43,516 nucleotides of DNA, taken from positions 1 through 43,516 of the forward strand of contig JAOAFA010000004.1 in assembly GCA_026416535.1 (NCBI GenBank), read 5' to 3'. Each line of letters starts with the position of its first letter. Positions within the stretch are counted from its first letter, which is position 1. The notes beneath the pieces are model-generated. The model made no database searches. It saw only the letters and a program-made list of their open reading frames with translations, and had not been told where the DNA came from. A program made the translations under genes and the position numbers. This DNA is from Deltaproteobacteria bacterium. Its GTDB lineage: Bacteria; Myxococcota; SpSt-1050. Below, piece by piece: positions 5,193-23,713 of the stretch.

Positions 5193-6506
5193 ATGCGTAA
5201 GAACTTTGTCCTTGATACGAATATCTTGCTCCACGACCCAATGGCTATCTTTGCCTTTGCAGATAATACTGTGGTAGTTCCAATATATGCTATTGAAGAA
5301 ATTGATAGCTTTAAGAAGGAGTTATCAGAGCTTGGAAGAAATGCAAGAACAGTAACAAGGACGATAGATCAACTGCGCACAAAGGGTTCTATTGTTGATG
5401 GGATAAAACTCGACAATGGGGGGGTGATAAAGGTGTTGTTTTCATCAGAGGAATTGCCTGAATATATTACGAGTAGGAGAAGTGTTGATAATAAGATACT
5501 TGCTGTGGCATTAAGGCTAAAAAAAGAAGAGCCAGATGTTCCTACTATATTTGTTTCTCAGGATGTTAATTTGAGGATACGAGCAAATATTTTGGGAATA
5601 AAAGCTGTTAACTATGTGAGGGATAGAAAGGATGTAACGGAGATCTACAAGGGCTATAGAGAGGTCATTACTAACTCTGAGAAGATTGATCAGTTTTATG
5701 AGCTTGGGACAATGGATTTCGATACCTCAGATTTTTTCCCCAATGAATTTGTTCAATTAAAATCTGAGACGAATCCTTCTCACTCGGCACTTGCGAGAGT
5801 TGATACTGAAAGAAAGATTTTTAAAAGGTTGATGAATATTCCAAAAGAAGGTGTTTGGGGTATACGACCTAAGAATAGAGAACAATCATTTGCAATGGAG
5901 TTGCTTCTTGATGATTCGGTGCAGATAGTCACCTTAGTTGGTAAAGCGGGGACAGGTAAGACCCTACTTGCAATTGCAGCCGGTCTTATGAAAGTGGCTG
6001 ATGAAAATAAGTACTTGAAAATGTTAGTCTCGAGACCTATATTTCCATTAGGACGTGATATAGGTTTTATCCCTGGTGAGATTGAGGAAAAACTCAATCC
6101 ATGGATGAAACCGATTTTTGATAATATAGAGTTTATTATGGGAGTCACGCGGGCTGACAAAAAACGGACAAGAGGATACAAGGAGTTGGAAGATATGGGT
6201 ATTATAGAGATTGAACCTCTTACATATATAAGAGGCAGATCTCTTCCCAGGCAGTACATAATTATTGATGAGGCTCAGAATCTAACACCCCATGAAGTGA
6301 AGACTATTATTACAAGGGCAGGAGAGGGCACCAAAATCATTCTTACAGGTGATCCATACCAGATTGATAATCCTTATGTTGATTCAATGAATAATGGTCT
6401 TGTGTATATTGTTCATAAATTTATGTCAGAAAAGATCTATGGACATGTGATGCTCGAAAAAGGTGAGAGATCTTATCTCGCAGAGTTAGCCGCTAACAAA
6501 TTATGA
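5193..6506 (+). CDS. PIN domain-PhoH family ATPase
   Basis: Two-domain protein of 437 residues in the PhoH2/YlaK group. Residues 1 to about 130 form a PIN nuclease-like domain (FVLDTNILLHDP with its early Asp, and SVDNKILAVALRL with a second acidic site). The C-terminal half is the PhoH P-loop ATPase: GKAGTGKT near residue 250 and Walker B IIIDEAQN near 359, followed by TKIILTGDPYQIDNPY. Known PIN-PhoH proteins couple RNA unwinding to RNA cleavage. The start has a strong CAGGAGGT. The next gene follows at once, so phoH, hsp20 and dnaJ are probably co-transcribed, linking it to stress or RNA quality control. Confidence 0.9.
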   Translation: MRKNFVLDTNILLHDPMAIFAFADNTVVVPIYAIEEIDSFKKELSELGRNARTVTRTIDQLRTKGSIVDGIKLDNGGVIKVLFSSEELPEYITSRRSVDNKILAVALRLKKEEPDVPTIFVSQDVNLRIRANILGIKAVNYVRDRKDVTEIYKGYREVITNSEKIDQFYELGTMDFDTSDFFPNEFVQLKSETNPSHSALARVDTERKIFKRLMNIPKEGVWGIRPKNREQSFAMELLLDDSVQIVTLVGKAGTGKTLLAIAAGLMKVADENKYLKMLVSRPIFPLGRDIGFIPGEIEEKLNPWMKPIFDNIEFIMGVTRADKKRTRGYKELEDMGIIEIEPLTYIRGRSLPRQYIIIDEAQNLTPHEVKTIITRAGEGTKIILTGDPYQIDNPYVDSMNNGLVYIVHKFMSEKIYGHVMLEKGERSYLAELAANKL

Positions 6507-6518
6507 ATGGAGGATGTG

Positions 6519-6947
6519 ATGTCCAAATGGGATTTTTATTACGAATTTGTCTCTTTTGCTCAAAGGTTTTCGGATATGTTTGATGATCTAACTATTAGAC
6601 ACAAAAGGGACACATTACAGGGAGGGTCATGGGAGCCACCTGTTGATGCATTTGAGAATGAAAAAGAAATAGTTGTAGAGGCGGAAATTCCAGGCACGAC
6701 TCAAAAGAATATTGAGATTCGTCTGGAAGATAATATATTGATAATTAAGGGTGTAAGAAACATGGATGAAAACGCTTTACAAGGCAATTTTTATAGAATG
6801 GAAAGAATGTATGGCAGTTTTATAAGAACTTTTACTCTCCCTGATCTGGTGGATAAAGAAAAAATATCGGCAAGTTATAAAAATGGTGTTTTGACTGTTA
6901 GAATGCCAAAACGTAGAAGGGATAGTATTACAATAGAGGTGAAGTAA
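6519..6947 (+). CDS. Hsp20/alpha-crystallin small heat shock protein
   Basis: ATP-independent holdase of about 142 residues. It has an aromatic N-terminal arm ([19 protein letters not shown]), the alpha-crystallin domain ([20 protein letters not shown] to [10 protein letters not shown], with the conserved GVL) and a short tail ending SITIEVK, close to the usual IxI/V anchor. ATG 6519 is preferred because TGGAGG lies five bases upstream; ATG 6507 directly after the phoH stop would use no visible site. It ends five bases before dnaJ. I see no CIRCE inverted repeat or other known heat-shock operator nearby. Confidence 0.9.
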
Positions 6948-6952
6948 GGTAT

Positions 6953-8035
6953 ATGAAGGATTACTACGAAATTTTAGGTGTGTCGAGAAATGCAACTGAT
7001 AAAGAGATAAAGAGTGCCTACAAAAGACTTGCAAAAAAATATCATCCAGATCTTAACCCGGGTAATAAGGCCGCTGAAGAAAAGTTTAAGGAGATAAATG
7101 AGGCTTATGAGGTCTTGTCTGATCCTGAGAAGAGAAAGAGATATGATATGTTCGGAGATATAAAGGGAGGCTATGGATCTGGTCAATATCAGGGTGGAGA
7201 TTTTTATCAAGATATAAATTTTGAAGATTTTGGATTTTCTGGGTTTCAAGATATATTTTCTCAGATATTCAGCCAGGGTTTTTCAAATCAATCAAGAAGG
7301 ATGAGGGACGAGGATGGTCAAGATATCAATTATCCTGTGTATATAACCTTAAGAGATGTGGTTCTGGGTAATAACGTAGATGTATCTTTTGAGAAACCTG
7401 TTAGATGTGAAGAGTGTAGAGGAACAGGGATGTCTGGTTCGAAAGGCAGGATAACCTGTCCAGATTGTAATGGCACAGGATTTAAAGGAATATTAAAAGG
7501 TACTTTTAGAATAGGATCTAAGTGTAGGACTTGTAACGGTAGTGGATTTATTTCTCACTCTACATGTTTGAGATGTGATGGTAGTGGATTTTATAATAAA
7601 GAACAAAAGTTATCGATTAAAATTCCTAAAGGGGTAGATGATAATTATAAGATACGCATTGCAGGAAAAGGAATGCCTGGTAGGGGTAGCGGAAAGGATG
7701 GAGATCTCTATCTTGAGGTTCATATAAAGGAGGATCCAACATATACAAGAAAAGGAGATGATCTTTATAGAGACATCTATATATCTTTATACGAAGCGGT
7801 TGCCGGCGGAAGAGTAGATGTAGATACGTTTGATGGTATAATTTCTGTTAAGATTCCAGAGATGACTTCCTCCGGAACGGTTTTGAGAGTTCCTCAAAAG
7901 GGTGTTCCACATTTGAAGGATTCAGGAAGGGGGGACTTGTATCTAAGAATCTTAGTAGAGATACCCAAAAATCTGCCTCAAAAGATTGTGGATTTAATAA
8001 AGGATTATTATAAGAAAACTACTAAATCCTTCTAG
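6953..8035 (+). CDS. dnaJ: Chaperone DnaJ (type I Hsp40)
   Basis: Co-chaperone that stimulates the ATPase of DnaK. All type I parts are visible: the J domain with HPD near residue 31, a Gly/Phe-rich stretch ([20 protein letters not shown]), four CxxCxGxG zinc motifs between about residues 150 and 210 ([32 protein letters not shown]), and the two C-terminal substrate-binding barrels ending near [11 protein letters not shown]. At 360 residues it is normal length. No dnaK follows; the only Hsp70-like gene in the window is the PilZ-DnaK fusion at 19198. It could equally serve a canonical DnaK elsewhere. Confidence 0.93.
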
Positions 8036-8390
8036 CAATACCGTAATTACTGTGTGGGGTTCTGATGTTTTATTGATTTTTGTTCAAAGTGAGTGGATTA
8101 TCTTCTCTATTCAGTGTATGTATTGGCGTTGGATTGGTTTTTTAGAATGTAATAAATTTAGGTAATTTGTTATTGTTTATGGAGAGTAAAGATAGGGAGG
8201 CTGAACAGTTGTGGTATGGAGGACTTTTATTAGTGTGGGCTAGAAAGTTTTTAAGTTGGATCCCTAAGCATTTATAACTTTCTCAATACTAAAGGCTCGA
8301 TTCCCAGATAATTATGTATAAAATTTATCTTGACCAATTGCTAATGATAAAATAGCATAAGTCAATTTAATTGTTTATTAGGAGGTTATT
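8036..8390. other. 355-base gap between dnaJ and lipoprotein gene
   Basis: Holds a promoter candidate at 8330-8358 and the Shine-Dalgarno for the lipoprotein. A 32-codon open frame at 8179-8277 encodes a peptide with an amphipathic, Trp-rich second half (LLLVWARKFLSWIPKHL), but no ribosome binding site precedes its ATG, so I do not call it a gene. Nothing else recognisable. Confidence 0.45.
8330..8358 (+). promoter_or_regulatory. Candidate promoter of the Cys-repeat lipoprotein
   Basis: TTGACC at 8330-8335, a 17-base spacer and TAGCAT at 8353-8358, about 30 bases before the ATG at 8391. The -35 box matches five of six consensus bases and the -10 box four of six. Confidence 0.45.
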
Positions 8391-8867
8391 ATGAGAAAAG
8401 TATTTTTGTTATTTGTCTTATCATGCTTTTCCTTATTAAATTGTTCCTCTGGGGATGATAGTGAATCAGCTGATGTAAATATTACGAACGATATTGGTGG
8501 TGGGGTCAGTGATATCATTACGAACAATGATACAGGGGGAGGTAATCAAACCTCTTGTGAAAAAGAACAGTGTATTACGTCATGTCCAGCAGGGTATTGC
8601 TATACTTGTGTAACCGCTGAGAATTGTGTAAACGACTGTGCTGGGGGTTATTGTAAGATGTTTTGCAAGGGAAACGTAGATTGTCAGTTTAGCTGTAGTG
8701 GTGGATACTGTGAATATACGTGTGGTGGTAATTCAAATTGTGAAGGGAGTTGTTCGGGTGGTAGATGTAAGTTCAACTGTGTAGACAATGCAAATTGTGA
8801 ATTTTCTTGCACAGGTGGTAATTGTTCTCACAATTGTAGTACTAAAGGAGTTTGTGAAAATATATAG
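8391..8867 (+). CDS. Small lipoprotein with 19-residue Cys repeats
   Basis: Protein of 158 residues. MRKVFLLFVLSCFSLLNC is a type II signal with a lipobox ending at Cys18 (LLNC), followed by an Asp/Asn/Gly-rich linker to about residue 53. The mature domain is a tandem array: C-x3-C-(A/S/T)GG-x-C-x3-C units begin at residues 79, 98, 117 and 136 with an exact 19-residue period, and a diverged unit precedes them. The Cys density suggests disulfide-stacked short turns or metal binding on the outside of the cell. AGGAGG lies just upstream of the ATG. The gene stands alone, with its own promoter candidate and gaps on both sides. No function is known to me. Confidence 0.85.
   Translation: MRKVFLLFVLSCFSLLNCSSGDDSESADVNITNDIGGGVSDIITNNDTGGGNQTSCEKEQCITSCPAGYCYTCVTAENCVNDCAGGYCKMFCKGNVDCQFSCSGGYCEYTCGGNSNCEGSCSGGRCKFNCVDNANCEFSCTGGNCSHNCSTKGVCENI
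8625..8841 (+). repeat. 57-bp coding tandem repeat (four units)
   Basis: DNA encoding the 19-residue Cys units of the lipoprotein. Units start at 8625, 8682, 8739 and 8796; the last is partial. Spacing is exact, while the sequence has diverged enough to be an old duplication under selection for Cys and Gly-Gly positions. Confidence 0.7.
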
Positions 8868-8951
8868 TAATTTTTGTGACGTGTAAAAGACGTTTTTATA
8901 ATTTACTAAATAAAAAATCTAAATTATATTTTCTTTAGGTGGAGGTGTATT

Positions 8952-10271
8952 TTGGTTTTTGATGGCAACGAAGAGATTATTAAAGTTTTATCAGAGCTAA
9001 TTAAGATTGATACCTCTAATCCACCTGGCAATGAGAAAGAAGCGATTGAATATTGTGCAAGGTACTTAAAGTCTTATGGTGTTGAACCAATTGTTATTGA
9101 ATCAGCACCCAAACGAGCAAATCTTGTAGCACGTGTAAAGGGGACCGGTAGGACACCATTCTTACTCACTGGTCATATAGATACGGTGCCGGCTGATGAA
9201 GCGAATTGGAGATTTCCTCCCTTTTCTGGTGTTTTAGAAGATGGTGCGATATGGGGTAGGGGGGCACTTGATATGAAGCATTTTGTAGCTATGCTTTTGG
9301 TTGTTATAAGGGAGCTTATTGCTGAGAACTTTAAGACTAAGAGGGATATAATAATTGTAATAACTTGTGATGAGGAAGAGGGTTCACAGTGCGGGGCCAG
9401 ATTTCTCGTAGAGAAACACCCCGATCTTATTGATGCAGAATTTGGCCTTGGTGAGGTTGGGGGATTTTCAATGAGCGTCGCCGGCAAGAGGTTGTATCCT
9501 GTTATGACGTCGGAGAAGGGTTTTGCGTGGCTGAAAATTACAGCGGAGGGAGAATCGGGACATGGGTCTATGCCTGTTTTTCGAAATTCAATTGGTCGAT
9601 TAGGGTTAGCAGCATGGAGACTGTCAAATATATTGCTTCCCCTTCATATTACAAAAGATGCATCTAATTTTTTGAGGAATCTCGGTAGTATTATTGGCTA
9701 CAAAGGTAAACTTCTAAGACTTCTTGAATATAATCTGACTAATGAATTAGTAGTAGAGAAACTTGTAACTAATCAGAGTCAAAAAAAATATTTTAAGTCC
9801 CTATTGAGGAATACCGCTTCTCCAACATTATTTTTTGCTGGTGATAAAATTAATGTAATACCCAAGGTTGCGTATCTTAAGGTTGATCTTAGATATCTAC
9901 CAGGGATTTCACTTGAGGAGGCCGTAGATGAAGTGCGTGAAGTTGTTGGTGATGATGTCAATATTGAAGTTGAGTCTTATGGTGAACCTGTTCAATTTGA
10001 GTCGAATACCGAGTTGTTTAAATTGATTAAGGATGTTGTTGAAAGGGAAGATAGGTTCTCGATTGTGACCCCATATATGTCGCCTGGTTTTACCGATGCA
10101 AAATATTTTAGTAAAAAAAATATAACAGTGTATGGTTTTACGCCCCTAAGGTTTGAAGGCGATTTCTCTTACGTATCTCTTATTCATTCGGAAAACGAGA
10201 GGGTGCCAGTTAGTGCACTATTATGGGGTAAACATGTATTAAAGCAGATAATAAAAGAGTATTGCGGATAA
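8952..10271 (+). CDS. M20 family zinc metallohydrolase (ArgE/DapE-like)
   Basis: Two-metal amidohydrolase of 439 residues. Metal-site motifs in order: LTGHIDTVPADE near residue 75, WGRGALDMKH near 105, TCDEEEGSQCG near 140 with the catalytic Glu pair, and a late SLIHSENERVPV carrying the C-terminal His. A lid/dimerisation domain with GHGS sits in the middle. The family removes acyl groups or cleaves dipeptides (acetylornithine deacetylase, succinyl-DAP desuccinylase, carboxypeptidase G2); the substrate cannot be read from the sequence. The TTG start at 8952 is chosen for the strong GGTGGAGGTG just upstream. It ends three bases before the kinase gene, suggesting co-transcription. Confidence 0.87.
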   Translation: MVFDGNEEIIKVLSELIKIDTSNPPGNEKEAIEYCARYLKSYGVEPIVIESAPKRANLVARVKGTGRTPFLLTGHIDTVPADEANWRFPPFSGVLEDGAIWGRGALDMKHFVAMLLVVIRELIAENFKTKRDIIIVITCDEEEGSQCGARFLVEKHPDLIDAEFGLGEVGGFSMSVAGKRLYPVMTSEKGFAWLKITAEGESGHGSMPVFRNSIGRLGLAAWRLSNILLPLHITKDASNFLRNLGSIIGYKGKLLRLLEYNLTNELVVEKLVTNQSQKKYFKSLLRNTASPTLFFAGDKINVIPKVAYLKVDLRYLPGISLEEAVDEVREVVGDDVNIEVESYGEPVQFESNTELFKLIKDVVEREDRFSIVTPYMSPGFTDAKYFSKKNITVYGFTPLRFEGDFSYVSLIHSENERVPVSALLWGKHVLKQIIKEYCG

Positions 10272-10274
10272 ACT

Positions 10275-12212
10275 ATGAAACCTACAATCTTTGGGAATTA
10301 CGCTCTTATTAAGAAGATAGGAAAAGGGGGTATGGCAGAGATATTTTTGGCTACACCAATTAAGTCCCCTCAATTTCTTGTAGTTATTAAAAAGATTAAT
10401 CCCGAACTTGTGGAGGATAAACATTATATTACAATGTTTCTGGATGAGGCGAAGTTGATGTCTTGTCTGATCCATCCAAACATAATTCAGATTCTTGATG
10501 TGGGAGAGGTAAAAGGAGAATACTATATTTGTATGGAGTATGTGCATGGAAAGGACCTTCTTACAATAATTGAATATTGTGTAGGGGCAGGTATAAGGAT
10601 ACCAGAGGATATAGGGCTTCACATAATGTTGGAGCTTTTAGAGGGACTTGATTATATTCACAATGTAAAGGGGCCTGATAATCAAGAGCTTAAAGTGATT
10701 CATAGAGATCTTTCACCATCCAATATTCTCATCTCACTTGATGGAGAGGTAAAGATAGGAGACTTTGGGATAGCTAAGACGGCGTTGCAAAAGAATGTGA
10801 CAAGGGCGGGTTATATCAAGGGCAAGATTGGATATATGTCGCCTGAACAAGTGGAGGGGAAGAAGCTTGACCATAGGACAGATGTCTATGTTGCAGGGTT
10901 GGTGCTTTACGAGATTTTTGCACAGAGCATGTATTTTAATATTGATAATGAATTTGAGGCCCTAAAGGCTATGCGAGAGGCAAAGCCGAAAGATAAAAGT
11001 GAGCTTTCAAAGTATATGTCGCCTGGATTAATTGATATTTTATACAAGGCATTGAAGAAAGATCCAGATGAGAGATTTCAAACTGCCTTGGATTTCTCAT
11101 CCGCGATAATGCAATACATGATTGAAAACAGGCTTTCGACTAACGTAAGTATACTTTCCTCTTTTATGCGTTCTCTTTTTCCAACAGATGAGACCCTTCT
11201 TGAACAAGTGCATAATGTCTCTAAAAAGTCATCTGTGATTGTCAAGCCTCTTAGTTATAAGAAAAAGGAATCTAAGGGTAGCCCAAAAACATTAAAGTTT
11301 TTTTTAAAAGATAAACATGGCAAAGTAGTTGGTCCATTCCTAGTTGATGTCCTTATTAACATAATAAAGATCTACAATCTTCCATCGAATACACTGGCAT
11401 CCACTGATAATAAATCTTTTAAACCACTGGATCAATATCCAGAATTTATTGAAGCCTTTCAATGTAGTCCAGAGGATAGAACAGGATTATTTTCTTTAAA
11501 TCCGCAATATCAAGGATTGTTGAGTGAAATCTCAGTTACAAAATTGTTTTATAGATTTGCATCTGCTAAGGTTACAGGGAAGCTGGTATTCAGAAATGGC
11601 GATATTGAGAAGATTGTATATTTAAGGGATGGATTCCCTGAGCATATAGAGACAAACAAAAAAGATGAACTATTTGGAGAGATTCTTGTAAGTAGAAAGA
11701 TTATAACGCGAACAAGTTTAAGTTTATCGTTAAAAGAGCAGGAGAAGAAGAAGCAGAAGATAGGTAATATTCTTATTGAAAAGGGTTATATTAAGCCTGC
11801 TGATTTAATAAAATTACTCACTGAGCAGATGCGCATAAGGTATTTTGAACTTTTTAATTGGCGAGATGGTCAATATCAATTTTATGCATGTTCCATTAAT
11901 AAAAATGTAGCTAATCCAATGGGCATGGGTGCGTTTGCTTTAATATCTGAGGCTGTAAGAAATAGGATGAATTATTCTATTATTGAAGAGACTTTGTCAC
12001 CTCTTTTAACGAAGAAGATTAGATTTGCAAAGGAAAGGGTCGTTAATCCGGAAAATTTTAGGTTAACACAAGAAGAATTAAAGATAACTTATGAACTTAA
12101 TAACATGAGTGTGAATTCAATTTATAGAAGATTTAGGATGACTTCCAATGAGGTTATTGATAGACTTGTGTATCTGCTTTATCAGACGGAGATTATAACA
12201 TTTGAGGAGTAG
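10275..12212 (+). CDS. Ser/Thr protein kinase with GYF-like and DUF4388-like regions
   Basis: Cytoplasmic eukaryotic-like kinase of 645 residues with no transmembrane segment visible. The catalytic domain (about 1-280) is complete: glycine loop GKGGMAE, VVIKKI lysine, HRDLSPSN near residue 142, DFGIA near 163 and GYMSPEQVEG. HRD(V/L)SPSN is typical of myxobacterial kinases. Around residues 335-395 lies a GYF_2-like module (FFLKDKHGKVVGPF ... PLDQYPEF). From about 410 a DUF4388/PATAN-like region follows (GLLSEISVTKLFYRF, VTGKLVFRNGDIEKIVYL, IGNILIEKGYI), with FELFNWRDGQYQF near 535. It is sandwiched between the M20 hydrolase and the DsbA-like gene with 3- and 6-base gaps, so the three are likely one operon. 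Confidence 0.9.
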   Translation: MKPTIFGNYALIKKIGKGGMAEIFLATPIKSPQFLVVIKKINPELVEDKHYITMFLDEAKLMSCLIHPNIIQILDVGEVKGEYYICMEYVHGKDLLTIIEYCVGAGIRIPEDIGLHIMLELLEGLDYIHNVKGPDNQELKVIHRDLSPSNILISLDGEVKIGDFGIAKTALQKNVTRAGYIKGKIGYMSPEQVEGKKLDHRTDVYVAGLVLYEIFAQSMYFNIDNEFEALKAMREAKPKDKSELSKYMSPGLIDILYKALKKDPDERFQTALDFSSAIMQYMIENRLSTNVSILSSFMRSLFPTDETLLEQVHNVSKKSSVIVKPLSYKKKESKGSPKTLKFFLKDKHGKVVGPFLVDVLINIIKIYNLPSNTLASTDNKSFKPLDQYPEFIEAFQCSPEDRTGLFSLNPQYQGLLSEISVTKLFYRFASAKVTGKLVFRNGDIEKIVYLRDGFPEHIETNKKDELFGEILVSRKIITRTSLSLSLKEQEKKKQKIGNILIEKGYIKPADLIKLLTEQMRIRYFELFNWRDGQYQFYACSINKNVANPMGMGAFALISEAVRNRMNYSIIEETLSPLLTKKIRFAKERVVNPENFRLTQEELKITYELNNMSVNSIYRRFRMTSNEVIDRLVYLLYQTEIITFEE

Positions 12213-12218
12213 CAAAAG

Positions 12219-13679
12219 ATGAAAAGAAGATGGGTCTTGTCGAGCGTAATATTGATGATAGCTATTGTTGTGTATATTAGTTTTTTTATATTTTCACCTT
12301 TTGAGAAAAAAGTTAAAGTTCAGAACTCGAATGGTAATAGAGATCCAAGCAATACTAATATTGTAGTAACTTTGGAGCCTCCAGATACAGTCTATAAAAT
12401 CATTCCCCATCCTTCTCGGCTTATTTATGGGCAAGATGACGCGATTGTCAAAGTAATCCTTTTTGCAGACTTTAGCAACAAAAAATCTTCCGAGGCTTTG
12501 AGAACATTAAAAGAGCTTGTTAATTCCAATAATAGCGTTGCAGTCTATCTGTATTCCTTTCCTATTTATCAGAATGAATTTTCTATTCCATTGTCTAATC
12601 TTTTTTTAATTTCTATTGATAAGGGGAAGAAAGGAGATTTCGTTAATTTTATTGAAAATACAGTGATAAAAGATGAATCAAGTATTATAGATTTCGTTGA
12701 GAGGCATAAGATTGATGTTCAAAAGGTTTTTGAACAGTACTTAGAAAATGAATTAAGTAAGTTGCCGGCATTAGATGATATGAATTTAGGTGTCAATTTT
12801 GGAGTCAAGATACCTCCTACATTCTTTGTTAATGGAGTCAGGGTAGATGGGTTGAAGACAAAGGATGAATTACAGACTATTATTGAAAATGAATTGGCTA
12901 AGGCAGAAAAGATATTAGATGCAGGTGTGAATCGGTCTGAAGTCTACCATTTAATAGTTAAAAACGGGAAGGAGACAGCTTATAAAGTTAAGGTCGTGGA
13001 TAGAGTAGAACATAAGGAGAAGACTGTTATTGATGACAACATTTACGAAGAGGATTTAAGATTTGTTCCTATTAGAGGTCCCAGGTATGCTTATGTCACC
13101 ATTGTTGTCTTTGTTGATTATGAGTGCCCTTATACAAAAAGGTTTTTTCGCATTTTAAACTCTTTATATAAAAACTATGAAAAGGATGTTAGAATCTTTG
13201 TAAAACACTATCCTTTGAGTACACATAAGCGTTCTTATGAGGTTGCAAAGATTCTTGCTGCTGCACTTGTACAAAGGAAGTTTTGGGTGCTATTTGAAAA
13301 GATAATGGAGACTCCAGAGTTTACTGATGAAGAGAAAATCTATGATATAGCGATGAATAATGGTATTGATTTAGAACAACTAAAGAGTATGAGAGATTCC
13401 GATAGAGTCAAAAAGTATGTAGAAGATGATTTAATAAAAGGTAGGGAGCTTGGAATAAAAGTCTTGCCAACAACTTACATAAATGGAGTTAGGTATGAGG
13501 GTGTATTGTCCTCTTCTTTCCTTGAAAAGATAATAAAGGACGAAAAGAGATTGGCAGAGAGATTAATCGGAGAGGGGATCAAAATGGAAGAATTGTATGA
13601 TAATATTGTAAGGAGGAATAAAGTAAAGAATTTCTTTACCAAAGGCATACAGAAACCGTATATTGAAAAAATAAAATGA
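12219..13679 (+). CDS. Membrane-anchored tandem DsbA-like protein with degraded active sites
   Basis: Protein of 486 residues with one N-terminal transmembrane segment (about residues 5-27) and a periplasmic body. Two thioredoxin-fold, DsbA-like domains can be recognised. The first (about 68-230) has VKVILFADFSNKKSSEA where CxxC should be, so both cysteines are missing, but keeps a cis-Pro loop (IPPTFFVNGVRVDG). The second (about 285-450) has VVFVDYECPYTKRF, a CxxT with a single Cys near residue 303, and the loop VLPTTYINGVRYEG. Classical disulfide exchange therefore looks impossible in domain 1 and unusual in domain 2. It starts six bases after the kinase stop. It may be a structural or binding protein, or act with one thiol. 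Confidence 0.8.
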   Translation: MKRRWVLSSVILMIAIVVYISFFIFSPFEKKVKVQNSNGNRDPSNTNIVVTLEPPDTVYKIIPHPSRLIYGQDDAIVKVILFADFSNKKSSEALRTLKELVNSNNSVAVYLYSFPIYQNEFSIPLSNLFLISIDKGKKGDFVNFIENTVIKDESSIIDFVERHKIDVQKVFEQYLENELSKLPALDDMNLGVNFGVKIPPTFFVNGVRVDGLKTKDELQTIIENELAKAEKILDAGVNRSEVYHLIVKNGKETAYKVKVVDRVEHKEKTVIDDNIYEEDLRFVPIRGPRYAYVTIVVFVDYECPYTKRFFRILNSLYKNYEKDVRIFVKHYPLSTHKRSYEVAKILAAALVQRKFWVLFEKIMETPEFTDEEKIYDIAMNNGIDLEQLKSMRDSDRVKKYVEDDLIKGRELGIKVLPTTYINGVRYEGVLSSSFLEKIIKDEKRLAERLIGEGIKMEELYDNIVRRNKVKNFFTKGIQKPYIEKIK

Positions 13680-21491: not shown

Positions 21492-23687
21492 CTATTTAAT
21501 ATAATTGCAGCTACAGCCTGATGATTTAATAGCCTCCTCCATTATTTCTTCATCACTGTTATTCTCATCTGAATTATCATTATTTTTTAACTTAAAGTAC
21601 ACTGTGACAGGTGTATCGTAATTAACTATAATGTTACATGTTTGGTTCTTTCCACAGCTTGCAATGTTCCATCCTTCAAAGGAGCTGGAATTGTTTGGAT
21701 TTGCAATGAGTTGGACCATGGATCCTTTAACGAACCATCCTGAACAATCACTTGTGCAATTGAGACCTTCTGGGTTACTTACTACGCTTCCTCTCCCATC
21801 TCCGGAATATCTTATGGATAACTTTACGTATTCTTTATTAGGATCCTGCCTTTTAAAAATGGCGGATATCCCGTGGTTTGAAGAGACATTTTGAAATGTG
21901 TAGGTGCTGACAGCGCCCATAGATTCTCCATCAACTATCACATCTTTAATGATGTATCCGGTATCTGGTATCATTGTGAATGTCTGAGATGCCCCTTTTC
22001 TTACAATGATTGAGCCTTCTGGTTGAATCTTGCCACCCTCTGAGGCTGAGGCAACTATGGTATAGGTTGGTATAGTATTTGAGATGAATTTGGCATATAT
22101 TGTGTGATTTGAAGTTACATTATTGAATGTGTATTTAGTGAGTGCACCAACTGATCTATTATCTACCAGTACATCTTCCACAGAGTAGCCATTATCTGGG
22201 ATGATCTCAAAAGACTGAGTACCTTTTTCTTGTACATATATATTTCCTGAAGGCACAATCTTTCCGTTGGGCCCTGCTGAGGCTGTGATTGTATAGGTCT
22301 TTGCTGTTGATTTTTCAAAATTTGCCATTATTGATAGTGGTTCCATTACCGTCAGTTTGATAGGATTGATGCTACTTTGGATGTCGCCGCTCCAGTTTTT
22401 GAATTGGTATCCTATATTTGGTATAGCTGAAAAAGTAATACTCGTCCAATAATCATTCCAACACCCAGAAGAGCAATCGGGATCAACTCTACCATAGGAA
22501 GTATTATTTACAGAGGTCTTAATTAGGTATTGCAATTTGTAATTCCACACTATAGATGAGTCTTGAGAGGGGATTACGACATTGTCATTTATTCCTTTAC
22601 CATCAGATCTATTATCAAATATATATCTGGTCTTTCCATCGGATTCAGTAAATACATTATTTACGTTTACAGTATGGGAGGAACCAATAGGTAGACTAAA
22701 GATCACAGGTGTTGTTATAGTGTAGCCATCGAATTTTATTGATTTTCCCCCCGGATCAGTTGCTAACATTGTTTGGACATAGTTTGTAGCTGATATATTG
22801 CCAAATGCTATAGCACTGTATCCAAAATCTGTGTCACCGTTTACTTCTGAATATGCTATTCTAAAATATCCATTCTCACCCCAAGCAGTAGAGAAGCTGT
22901 TCTTAACTATGAAACAACTTTGTGAATCATCCCAACCAACAATGAGCACTGCATGTGCACCTTGTTGTGATCCTGCCCTGTGGGTATAAACTCCGCTCTG
23001 ATAGTATTCAAAATCTTCATAAACAATCATAGCGACAGGTATAGGTCCATAATTATATACTGCTTCTTTCAGAGCGGAAACTGATTGTCTTACCATTTGA
23101 TAAGATGTTATTTTGTATACGTACGTGCCATATAATTTGCATGTGTAAGAACAAGAGGAATCGGATGCTCTATAAGGATAACAGGACTCATCATAAGTAC
23201 CATAGTTTTTTAAAAAATTTGCTGCATTATCTAGATAACCTCCTTCGCACCCGCCACCAAAGTTATTACACGAAACCAAGATCTGTTCAGATAAATCTAG
23301 CATGTTGTTGTAGCTTTTGTTTGTCTGGATGAGATATTTTGATTCAAGTGCACCAACTGAGGCGAATGCCCAACATGCACCACAATCTTCTTGATATTTA
23401 ACTGGGGTTACATAATTTTTTCCATTGTTGTTTCTCCAATCAAATTTCGATGGCACAGCTCCAAGACCGCCATTAAAAACGTTGTGACTATCAATGGTTC
23501 TCTTATAACTTAATGAGAACATCCTTTTTTTGACCTCTTTTGGTAACTTTGAGATATTTGTCTCAGCCGCTGTCCAACTGGCATTGGTCTCTTTCAAGAT
23601 TTGTTGTAATTTTTCGAGTGAAAGATCTTCCGCAAAGACATGATTGAGAAGAAATATACTAAAAGAGATGATTAATAGTCTTTTCAT
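21492..23687 (-). CDS. Secreted papain-like (C1A) protease with InlB-type repeats
   Basis: Exported protein of about 731 residues. Signal peptide MKRLLIISFSIFLLNHVFA, short propeptide to about 78, then a papain fold: FDWRNNNGKNYVTPVKYQ with oxyanion Gln99, DCGACWAFA with catalytic Cys105, GAHAVLIVGWD with the His and IVKNSFSTAWGENGYF with the Asn. After about residue 310 come modules of divergent InlB B-repeat type (YTITASAGPNGKIVPSG, YTIVASASEGGKIQPEG, VSNPEGLNCTSDCSGWF). The C-terminus is acidic and then ends SSGCSCNYIK. A cysteine-rich step like this often opens a C-terminal sorting signal, but no membrane segment follows. ATG 23687 has GGAGG five bases upstream. Confidence 0.9.
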   Translation of the reverse strand: MKRLLIISFSIFLLNHVFAEDLSLEKLQQILKETNASWTAAETNISKLPKEVKKRMFSLSYKRTIDSHNVFNGGLGAVPSKFDWRNNNGKNYVTPVKYQEDCGACWAFASVGALESKYLIQTNKSYNNMLDLSEQILVSCNNFGGGCEGGYLDNAANFLKNYGTYDESCYPYRASDSSCSYTCKLYGTYVYKITSYQMVRQSVSALKEAVYNYGPIPVAMIVYEDFEYYQSGVYTHRAGSQQGAHAVLIVGWDDSQSCFIVKNSFSTAWGENGYFRIAYSEVNGDTDFGYSAIAFGNISATNYVQTMLATDPGGKSIKFDGYTITTPVIFSLPIGSSHTVNVNNVFTESDGKTRYIFDNRSDGKGINDNVVIPSQDSSIVWNYKLQYLIKTSVNNTSYGRVDPDCSSGCWNDYWTSITFSAIPNIGYQFKNWSGDIQSSINPIKLTVMEPLSIMANFEKSTAKTYTITASAGPNGKIVPSGNIYVQEKGTQSFEIIPDNGYSVEDVLVDNRSVGALTKYTFNNVTSNHTIYAKFISNTIPTYTIVASASEGGKIQPEGSIIVRKGASQTFTMIPDTGYIIKDVIVDGESMGAVSTYTFQNVSSNHGISAIFKRQDPNKEYVKLSIRYSGDGRGSVVSNPEGLNCTSDCSGWFVKGSMVQLIANPNNSSSFEGWNIASCGKNQTCNIIVNYDTPVTVYFKLKNNDNSDENNSDEEIMEEAIKSSGCSCNYIK

Positions 23688-23713
23688 AAGGCCTCCCAAA
23701 TACCTATTGTTAT

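Follow-up and report, generated by a model that had tools for sequence, protein, structure and literature searches.

The window, by which we mean the whole stretch of 43,516 nucleotides analysed here, carries on its plus strand an open reading frame (12219-13679) that starts with ATG and encodes 486 residues. Six bases separate it from the end of a Ser/Thr kinase gene (12212), as a preceding sequence-only reading of the same DNA had pointed out. The features are as follows:

10275..12212, plus strand: Ser/Thr kinase with DUF4388 and a match to a c-di-GMP-type (MshE-related) domain; context, outside the mechanism proposed below
12219..13679, plus strand: tandem DsbA-like protein, 486 aa, with the single cysteine C303 (ORF; Pfam PF13462 twice; AF2 model, pLDDT 85.5)
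12225..12290, plus strand: predicted N-terminal membrane helix, residues 3-24 (helix in the AF2 model; Kyte-Doolittle)
12399..12902, plus strand: DsbA-like domain 1, residues 61-228, without cysteine (alignments; domain model; VIA)
12477..12488, plus strand: NKKS, residues 87-90, the CxxC columns of domain 1 (alignments; DEKT in the orthologue of genome G001)
12816..12818, plus strand: cis-Pro position P200 of domain 1, loop IPPT (column is P in 45 of 45 relatives)
13047..13553, plus strand: DsbA-like domain 2, residues 277-445 (Pfam; alignments; VIA)
13125..13136, plus strand: CPYT, residues 303-306, the CxxC columns of domain 2, with C303 as sole cysteine (alignments; same in G001)
13467..13469, plus strand: cis-Pro position P417 of domain 2, loop VLPT (alignment)

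What kind of protein does this gene encode? Both halves match the Pfam family Thioredoxin_4 (PF13462) above its curated cut-off, domain 1 on its own with 28.9 bits against a cut-off of 23.2, and the sequence-only reading, which had described a tandem DsbA-like protein devoid of CxxC, is borne out by the alignments: the columns in which a dithiol oxidoreductase would carry CxxC hold NKKS and CPYT, and the entire chain has one cysteine. CPYT had been placed correctly in domain 2, and both cis-Pro loops are indeed kept, IPPT with P200 and VLPT with P417; the SNKK given for domain 1 (residues 86-89) is one residue out of register, the aligned columns 87-90 reading NKKS. The two residues directly ahead of P417 are VL, in contrast to the GT of nearly all relatives, so the surroundings of the active site have changed. 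The 19-residue Kyte-Doolittle maximum of the protein is 2.76, at residue 6, and the domains beyond this N-terminal helix probably lie on the periplasmic side.

A whole-protein AF2 model, built with 45 pieces of relatives, has a mean pLDDT of 85.5, with values of at least 90 at 310 of the 486 residues, and a pTM of 0.55, which leaves the relative placement of the two domains unsure; domain 1 folded apart reaches a pLDDT of 92.6 and a pTM of 0.88. In VIA comparisons, domain 1 matches the ScsC structure 5idr_C (Z 19.6, rmsd 2.6, 165 residues aligned) and BdbD 3eu4 (Z 18.3, rmsd 2.4, 166 residues), while domain 2 matches 3gyk_B (Z 21.7, rmsd 2.1, 171 residues aligned) and ScsC structures at a Z of about 21. 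ScsC and BdbD, periplasmic oxidoreductases of the DsbA family, share the predicted fold (Z 19.8-21.1 for domain 2 and 17.7-19.6 for domain 1), but the window protein differs from them in lacking CxxC and in having two domains per chain. Both halves are thus modelled as DsbA-like folds, with a thioredoxin fold, an inserted helical subdomain and a cis-proline, in models that depend in part on the DsbA assumption, since the input alignments consisted of DsbA relatives.

Myxococcota widely carry tandem DsbA-like proteins: a search of 58 genomes, among them that of the window, gave a match to some part of the window protein in 55. Loci were taken for at most the best 30 matches of this search and, from named records, for the best 80 of 517 relatives; the best of the named-record matches come mostly from Myxococcales, Myxococcota or kin. 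The loci with DsbA domains hold 145 such ORFs, 127 of them distinct and 78 of these with at least two domains, in counts that omit domains too degenerate for the profile, whose training set included the domains of the window protein. Sixty-nine of the 78 have CxxC in every domain, seven are mixed and two, the window protein and its orthologue in G001, have none. By origin, the division into all-CxxC, mixed and none is 25, 1 and 2 in the subset found by homology (n=28), and 44, 6 and 0 in the named-record subset (n=50), the latter being biased towards a kept cysteine because its search pattern demands CP(Y/F)(C/T) in one domain. These proteins consist of two to four Thioredoxin_4-type domains and repeat the same DsbA domain with helical extension as the window protein, and their matches to it span the junction of its two domains (query 187-468 in one example); however, 76 of the 78 sampled have CxxC in at least one domain, in contrast to the window protein and its orthologue.

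The mixed cases include CPFS-CPFS-CPFC (genome G017), CPFT-CPFC-CPFC (Sorangium cellulosum So0008-312), APNG-CPFS-CPYC (locus L131) and VPAS-CPFC-CPFC-CPFC (locus L114), and single domains with CPFS, CPFT or CPYS recur among other tandem proteins. The window protein marks the far end of this series, whose members have individual domains with one cysteine or both lost (CPFS, CPFT, CPYS, SPLS, VPAS, APNG). The three-domain protein of L131 (5989-7992) is another case far along this series, and is adjoined by a kinase match on the opposite strand. In a domain tree, domains 1 and 2 of the window genus group together (98/92) on long branches, 4.66 for domain 1; given these branches, unsettled bootstrap values and an unusual letter make-up, no conclusion on a local duplication is drawn.

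Is the absence of CxxC peculiar to one genome? The orthologue in G001, a genome of the same genus, shares 60% identity with the window protein; its CxxC columns read DEKT and CPYT, it likewise has a single cysteine, and the order M20 peptidase, kinase, DsbA-like gene, deoxynucleoside kinase, PanC, SmpB is common to both genomes. As the loss, the single cysteine and the gene order are shared, the loss of CxxC is not a local decay; an orthologue with a normal CxxC, which the sequence-only reading had named as the sign of such decay, was not seen. Across 195 phylum genomes, the hits with E <= 1e-33 contained one further full-length orthologue, that of G001; three genomes, the window's own included, covered its class and order. 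The pattern of CxxT in one domain and no cysteine in the other, which had been proposed as a check on orthologues, therefore recurs in the one available, and its conservation is that of two sequences only. Pfam matches at E <= 0.001 reach domain 2 of the G001 protein and not its domain 1. With a DsbA fold modelled in both halves and the pattern repeated in the orthologue, the tandem arrangement of degraded sites is not due to chance.

The comparison of the two species further indicates that the gene is under constraint. With silent sites at saturation, the DsbA-like gene shows a dN of 0.31, as against 0.07-0.20 for its neighbours, which are 73-90% identical. Domain 1 (dN 0.37) and domain 2 (dN 0.23) differ in this respect, and also in the CxxC columns, where one of four residues is identical in domain 1 and all four in domain 2. 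Of the family-conserved residues, defined as the same in at least 90% of 46 rows with the window row counted and the inter-domain Y243 left out, the window protein has retained 9 of the 25 that fall in domain 1 and 18 of the 26 in domain 2, and it agrees with the G001 protein at 15 and 25 of these positions, respectively; C303, P304, R308, P332, H336, F355, W356 and P417 are among those retained in domain 2. That the fold is under selection, as initially proposed, agrees with both the modelled DsbA folds and the dN of 0.31 at saturated silent sites. The accompanying statement, by which selection would not act on disulfide exchange, was too strong, as CPYT with its C303 is identical in both species and 18 of 26 domain 2 residues are kept.

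What could be the role of such a protein? The reading we favour, tentatively but as a quite conceivable one, is that of a monothiol protein of the holdase, isomerase or de-thiolation type instead of an oxidase, since the attacking cysteine is kept and the releasing one is gone; a redox-independent adaptor ranks second. The protein would be a divergent relative, reduced to a single thiol, of the tandem DsbA-like proteins seen in Myxococcota. Its N-terminal helix would act as an anchor for presumably periplasmic domains. Domain 1 would be a catalytically dead DsbA fold, probably serving as a binding or spacing module comparable to the b domains of disulfide isomerases. In domain 2, the N-terminal cysteine of the motif and the cis-Pro loop would be maintained, with threonine replacing the resolving cysteine, such that C303, if nucleophilic, would form mixed disulfides with client thiols that it could not release by itself. 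We infer from this a thiol-dependent holdase, isomerase or de-thiolation factor, with putative clients and a putative activity. An oxidase would be available elsewhere in the window genome, as it encodes a VKOR-DsbA fusion with CPFC, which could serve in this capacity, as well as other Dsb-type genes, with two matches of the DsbD/CcdA type; there is also a GILT-like protein with CPYG motifs. A Thioredoxin_4 search of the genus's two genomes revealed no tandem DsbA with CPFC-type sites.

In favour of the monothiol reading are the single cysteine in both species, the identical CPYT together with 25 of 26 conserved domain 2 positions, the stronger constraint on domain 2 than on domain 1, the VKOR-DsbA fusion in the same genome, and the recurrence of CPFS, CPFT or CPYS domains in other tandem proteins. 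A precedent is provided by the non-canonical CXXS members of the PDI family, such as ERp44 and AGR2, which resemble domain 2 in having kept the first cysteine of the motif and lost the resolving one, but are eukaryotic and carry serine instead of threonine. ERp44 also has thioredoxin domains without an active site. According to the accessible text of one account, CXXS PDIs bind clients for longer and are called holdases, a PDI in CXXS form was active in isomerisation and in neither oxidation nor reduction, and a further cysteine of ERp44 is thought to aid client release (PMC12384036); the window protein has no further cysteine. CXXS and CXXT also occur in reductases of the thioredoxin fold (PMC4960241, in part), and CXXT is listed among derived motifs in an excerpt of PMC9927160. 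In the PDI family, thioredoxin domains that have lost the catalytic cysteines serve structure or protein binding, and UGGT has four DsbA-like domains (PMC7687155, in part). Several points count against this reading: the conservation comes from two sequences only, VL replaces GT before the cis-proline, threonine stands where the CXXS precedents have serine, and the DsbAs characterised by the time of PMC4960241 all had CXXC, as far as the accessible part of that paper goes. The faster evolution of the gene (60% versus 73-90% identity) would also fit a weakening function. A more specific proposal, which we regard as speculative and rather unlikely, is a bacterial periplasmic holdase of two DsbA folds, in which the dead domain binds clients and the CxxT domain traps them covalently, an independent counterpart of thiol quality control of the ERp44 type, descended from an oxidoreductase through loss of all resolving cysteines.

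Alternatively, the protein could be a redox-independent adaptor or folding sensor whose DsbA folds are binding surfaces only, C303 being structural or inherited; we consider this possible, if doubtful. The model would be YjbH of Bacillus and Staphylococcus, an Spx adaptor, or the DsbA-like domains of UGGT, both being DsbA-like folds in proteins that serve to bind another protein. UGGT is among the Foldseek matches and YjbH among those of VIA (Z 15.4). YjbH, however, is a cytosolic adaptor and UGGT a glucosyltransferase of the ER, so the likeness is one of fold, and no family relation is claimed; moreover, the UGGT match covers both domains only at an rmsd of about 20 Å, so that the similarity holds per domain. 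The absence of any CxxC, the largely degraded domain 1 and the altered residues before the cis-proline all suit an adaptor, as does the precedent, in the available part of one account, that both B. subtilis and S. aureus degrade Spx without needing the YjbH cysteines (PMC7253607). In the same text, however, Listeria YjbH requires its CXXC cysteines (PMC7253607). Also counting against an adaptor, C303 and the entire CPYT are identical at 60% overall identity, and P304, H336, F355 and W356 are kept too.

It is improbable that the gene is a decaying remnant of a tandem DsbA heading for loss, despite its faster evolution relative to the neighbours, the long branches of both domains in the tree and the intact CxxC in nearly all sampled tandem relatives: the ORF is intact in both species, and a good DsbA fold is predicted for both domains. 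Local decay as the main reading was discarded on account of the loss shared with the orthologue, the dN of 0.31 at saturated silent sites and the identical CPYT.

The kinase neighbour had led the sequence-only reading to a periplasmic sensing or scaffold partner. The orthologous kinase is found in at least 12 of the 195 genomes of the phylum (matches at E <= 1e-90 over most of the kinase length, with at most six candidates scored per genome). The proposed constant adjacency stands in both genomes of the window genus; beside the kinase of the other ten, no DsbA-like gene was detected within the flanks examined, four of the ten contigs leaving 1.3-2.5 kb downstream. Three weak domain matches at these kinase loci, with E values of 0.057 to 0.15, either fall at a distance from the kinase or are antisense to it and were taken as chance. 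Conversely, 13 of 51 tandem DsbA proteins from the 80 named loci have a kinase match in their flanks, four within 400 bp and three having one kinase in common, a raw count without background rate from which neither enrichment nor its absence follows. One such locus, L103 of Nannocystis sp. RBIL2, has a two-domain DsbA (5692-7203) and, 67 bases downstream on the same strand, a kinase match (7270-12561). Mycobacterial PknE is a membrane kinase joined to a DsbG-like extracellular domain; here, in contrast, the genes are separate and the kinase has one marginal hydrophobic window (1.65) and no clear membrane helix. In the portions of the PknE literature available to us, neither a Dsb nor a thioredoxin domain is mentioned. 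The neighbours M20, dNK, PanC and SmpB are functionally unrelated. Co-transcription with housekeeping genes is the simpler reading of the adjacency; it is suggested by the spacing only, since a search for promoters and terminators gave no clearer signal than shuffled sequence did. Thus, for all the six-base gap on the same strand, its repetition in one orthologue and the precedents of L103 and PknE, a partnership with the kinase is the least probable of these readings, given the ten genomes in which no such pair was detected within the flanks, the unrelated neighbours and a kinase that lacks a clear membrane helix.

According to the accessible part of PMC2757866, certain bacterial DsbA-like sequences contain two or three domains. 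Among the open-licence papers listed by our searches, judged mostly by title and abstract, we found no tandem DsbA without any CxxC that is kept in two species, and no mention of DsbA together with CPYT; among the titles listed for Myxococcota multi-domain DsbA-like proteins, none has these proteins as its subject. If the monothiol reading is true, the series described here would show a stepwise transition from an oxidoreductase to a client-holding protein, as in the eukaryotic PDI family. If it is false, the gene nonetheless cautions clearly against annotating its like as thiol-disulfide oxidoreductases.

Other thiol-related proteins were observed in these genomes. A lipoprotein-like protein of 529 aa in the window genome (L180:487-2076, on G000:C101) has two GILT-type stretches (Pfam GILT, 2.5e-27), with MSQCPYG motifs (CxxG) around a middle segment that bears CxxC; with relatives at L179 and L181 in G001 and G002, it is represented in all three genomes analysed from the order. 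G001 also encodes a single DsbA-like protein with CPFC (L171:1459-2304, on G001:C28), for which the Thioredoxin_4 search gave no counterpart in the window genome. Within the window, a small protein that looks secreted and is rich in cysteines set in short repeats (8391-8867) is a possible client of the disulfide machinery, and a gene on the minus strand (21492-23699) encodes a papain-like C1 peptidase followed by InlB-type B repeats.
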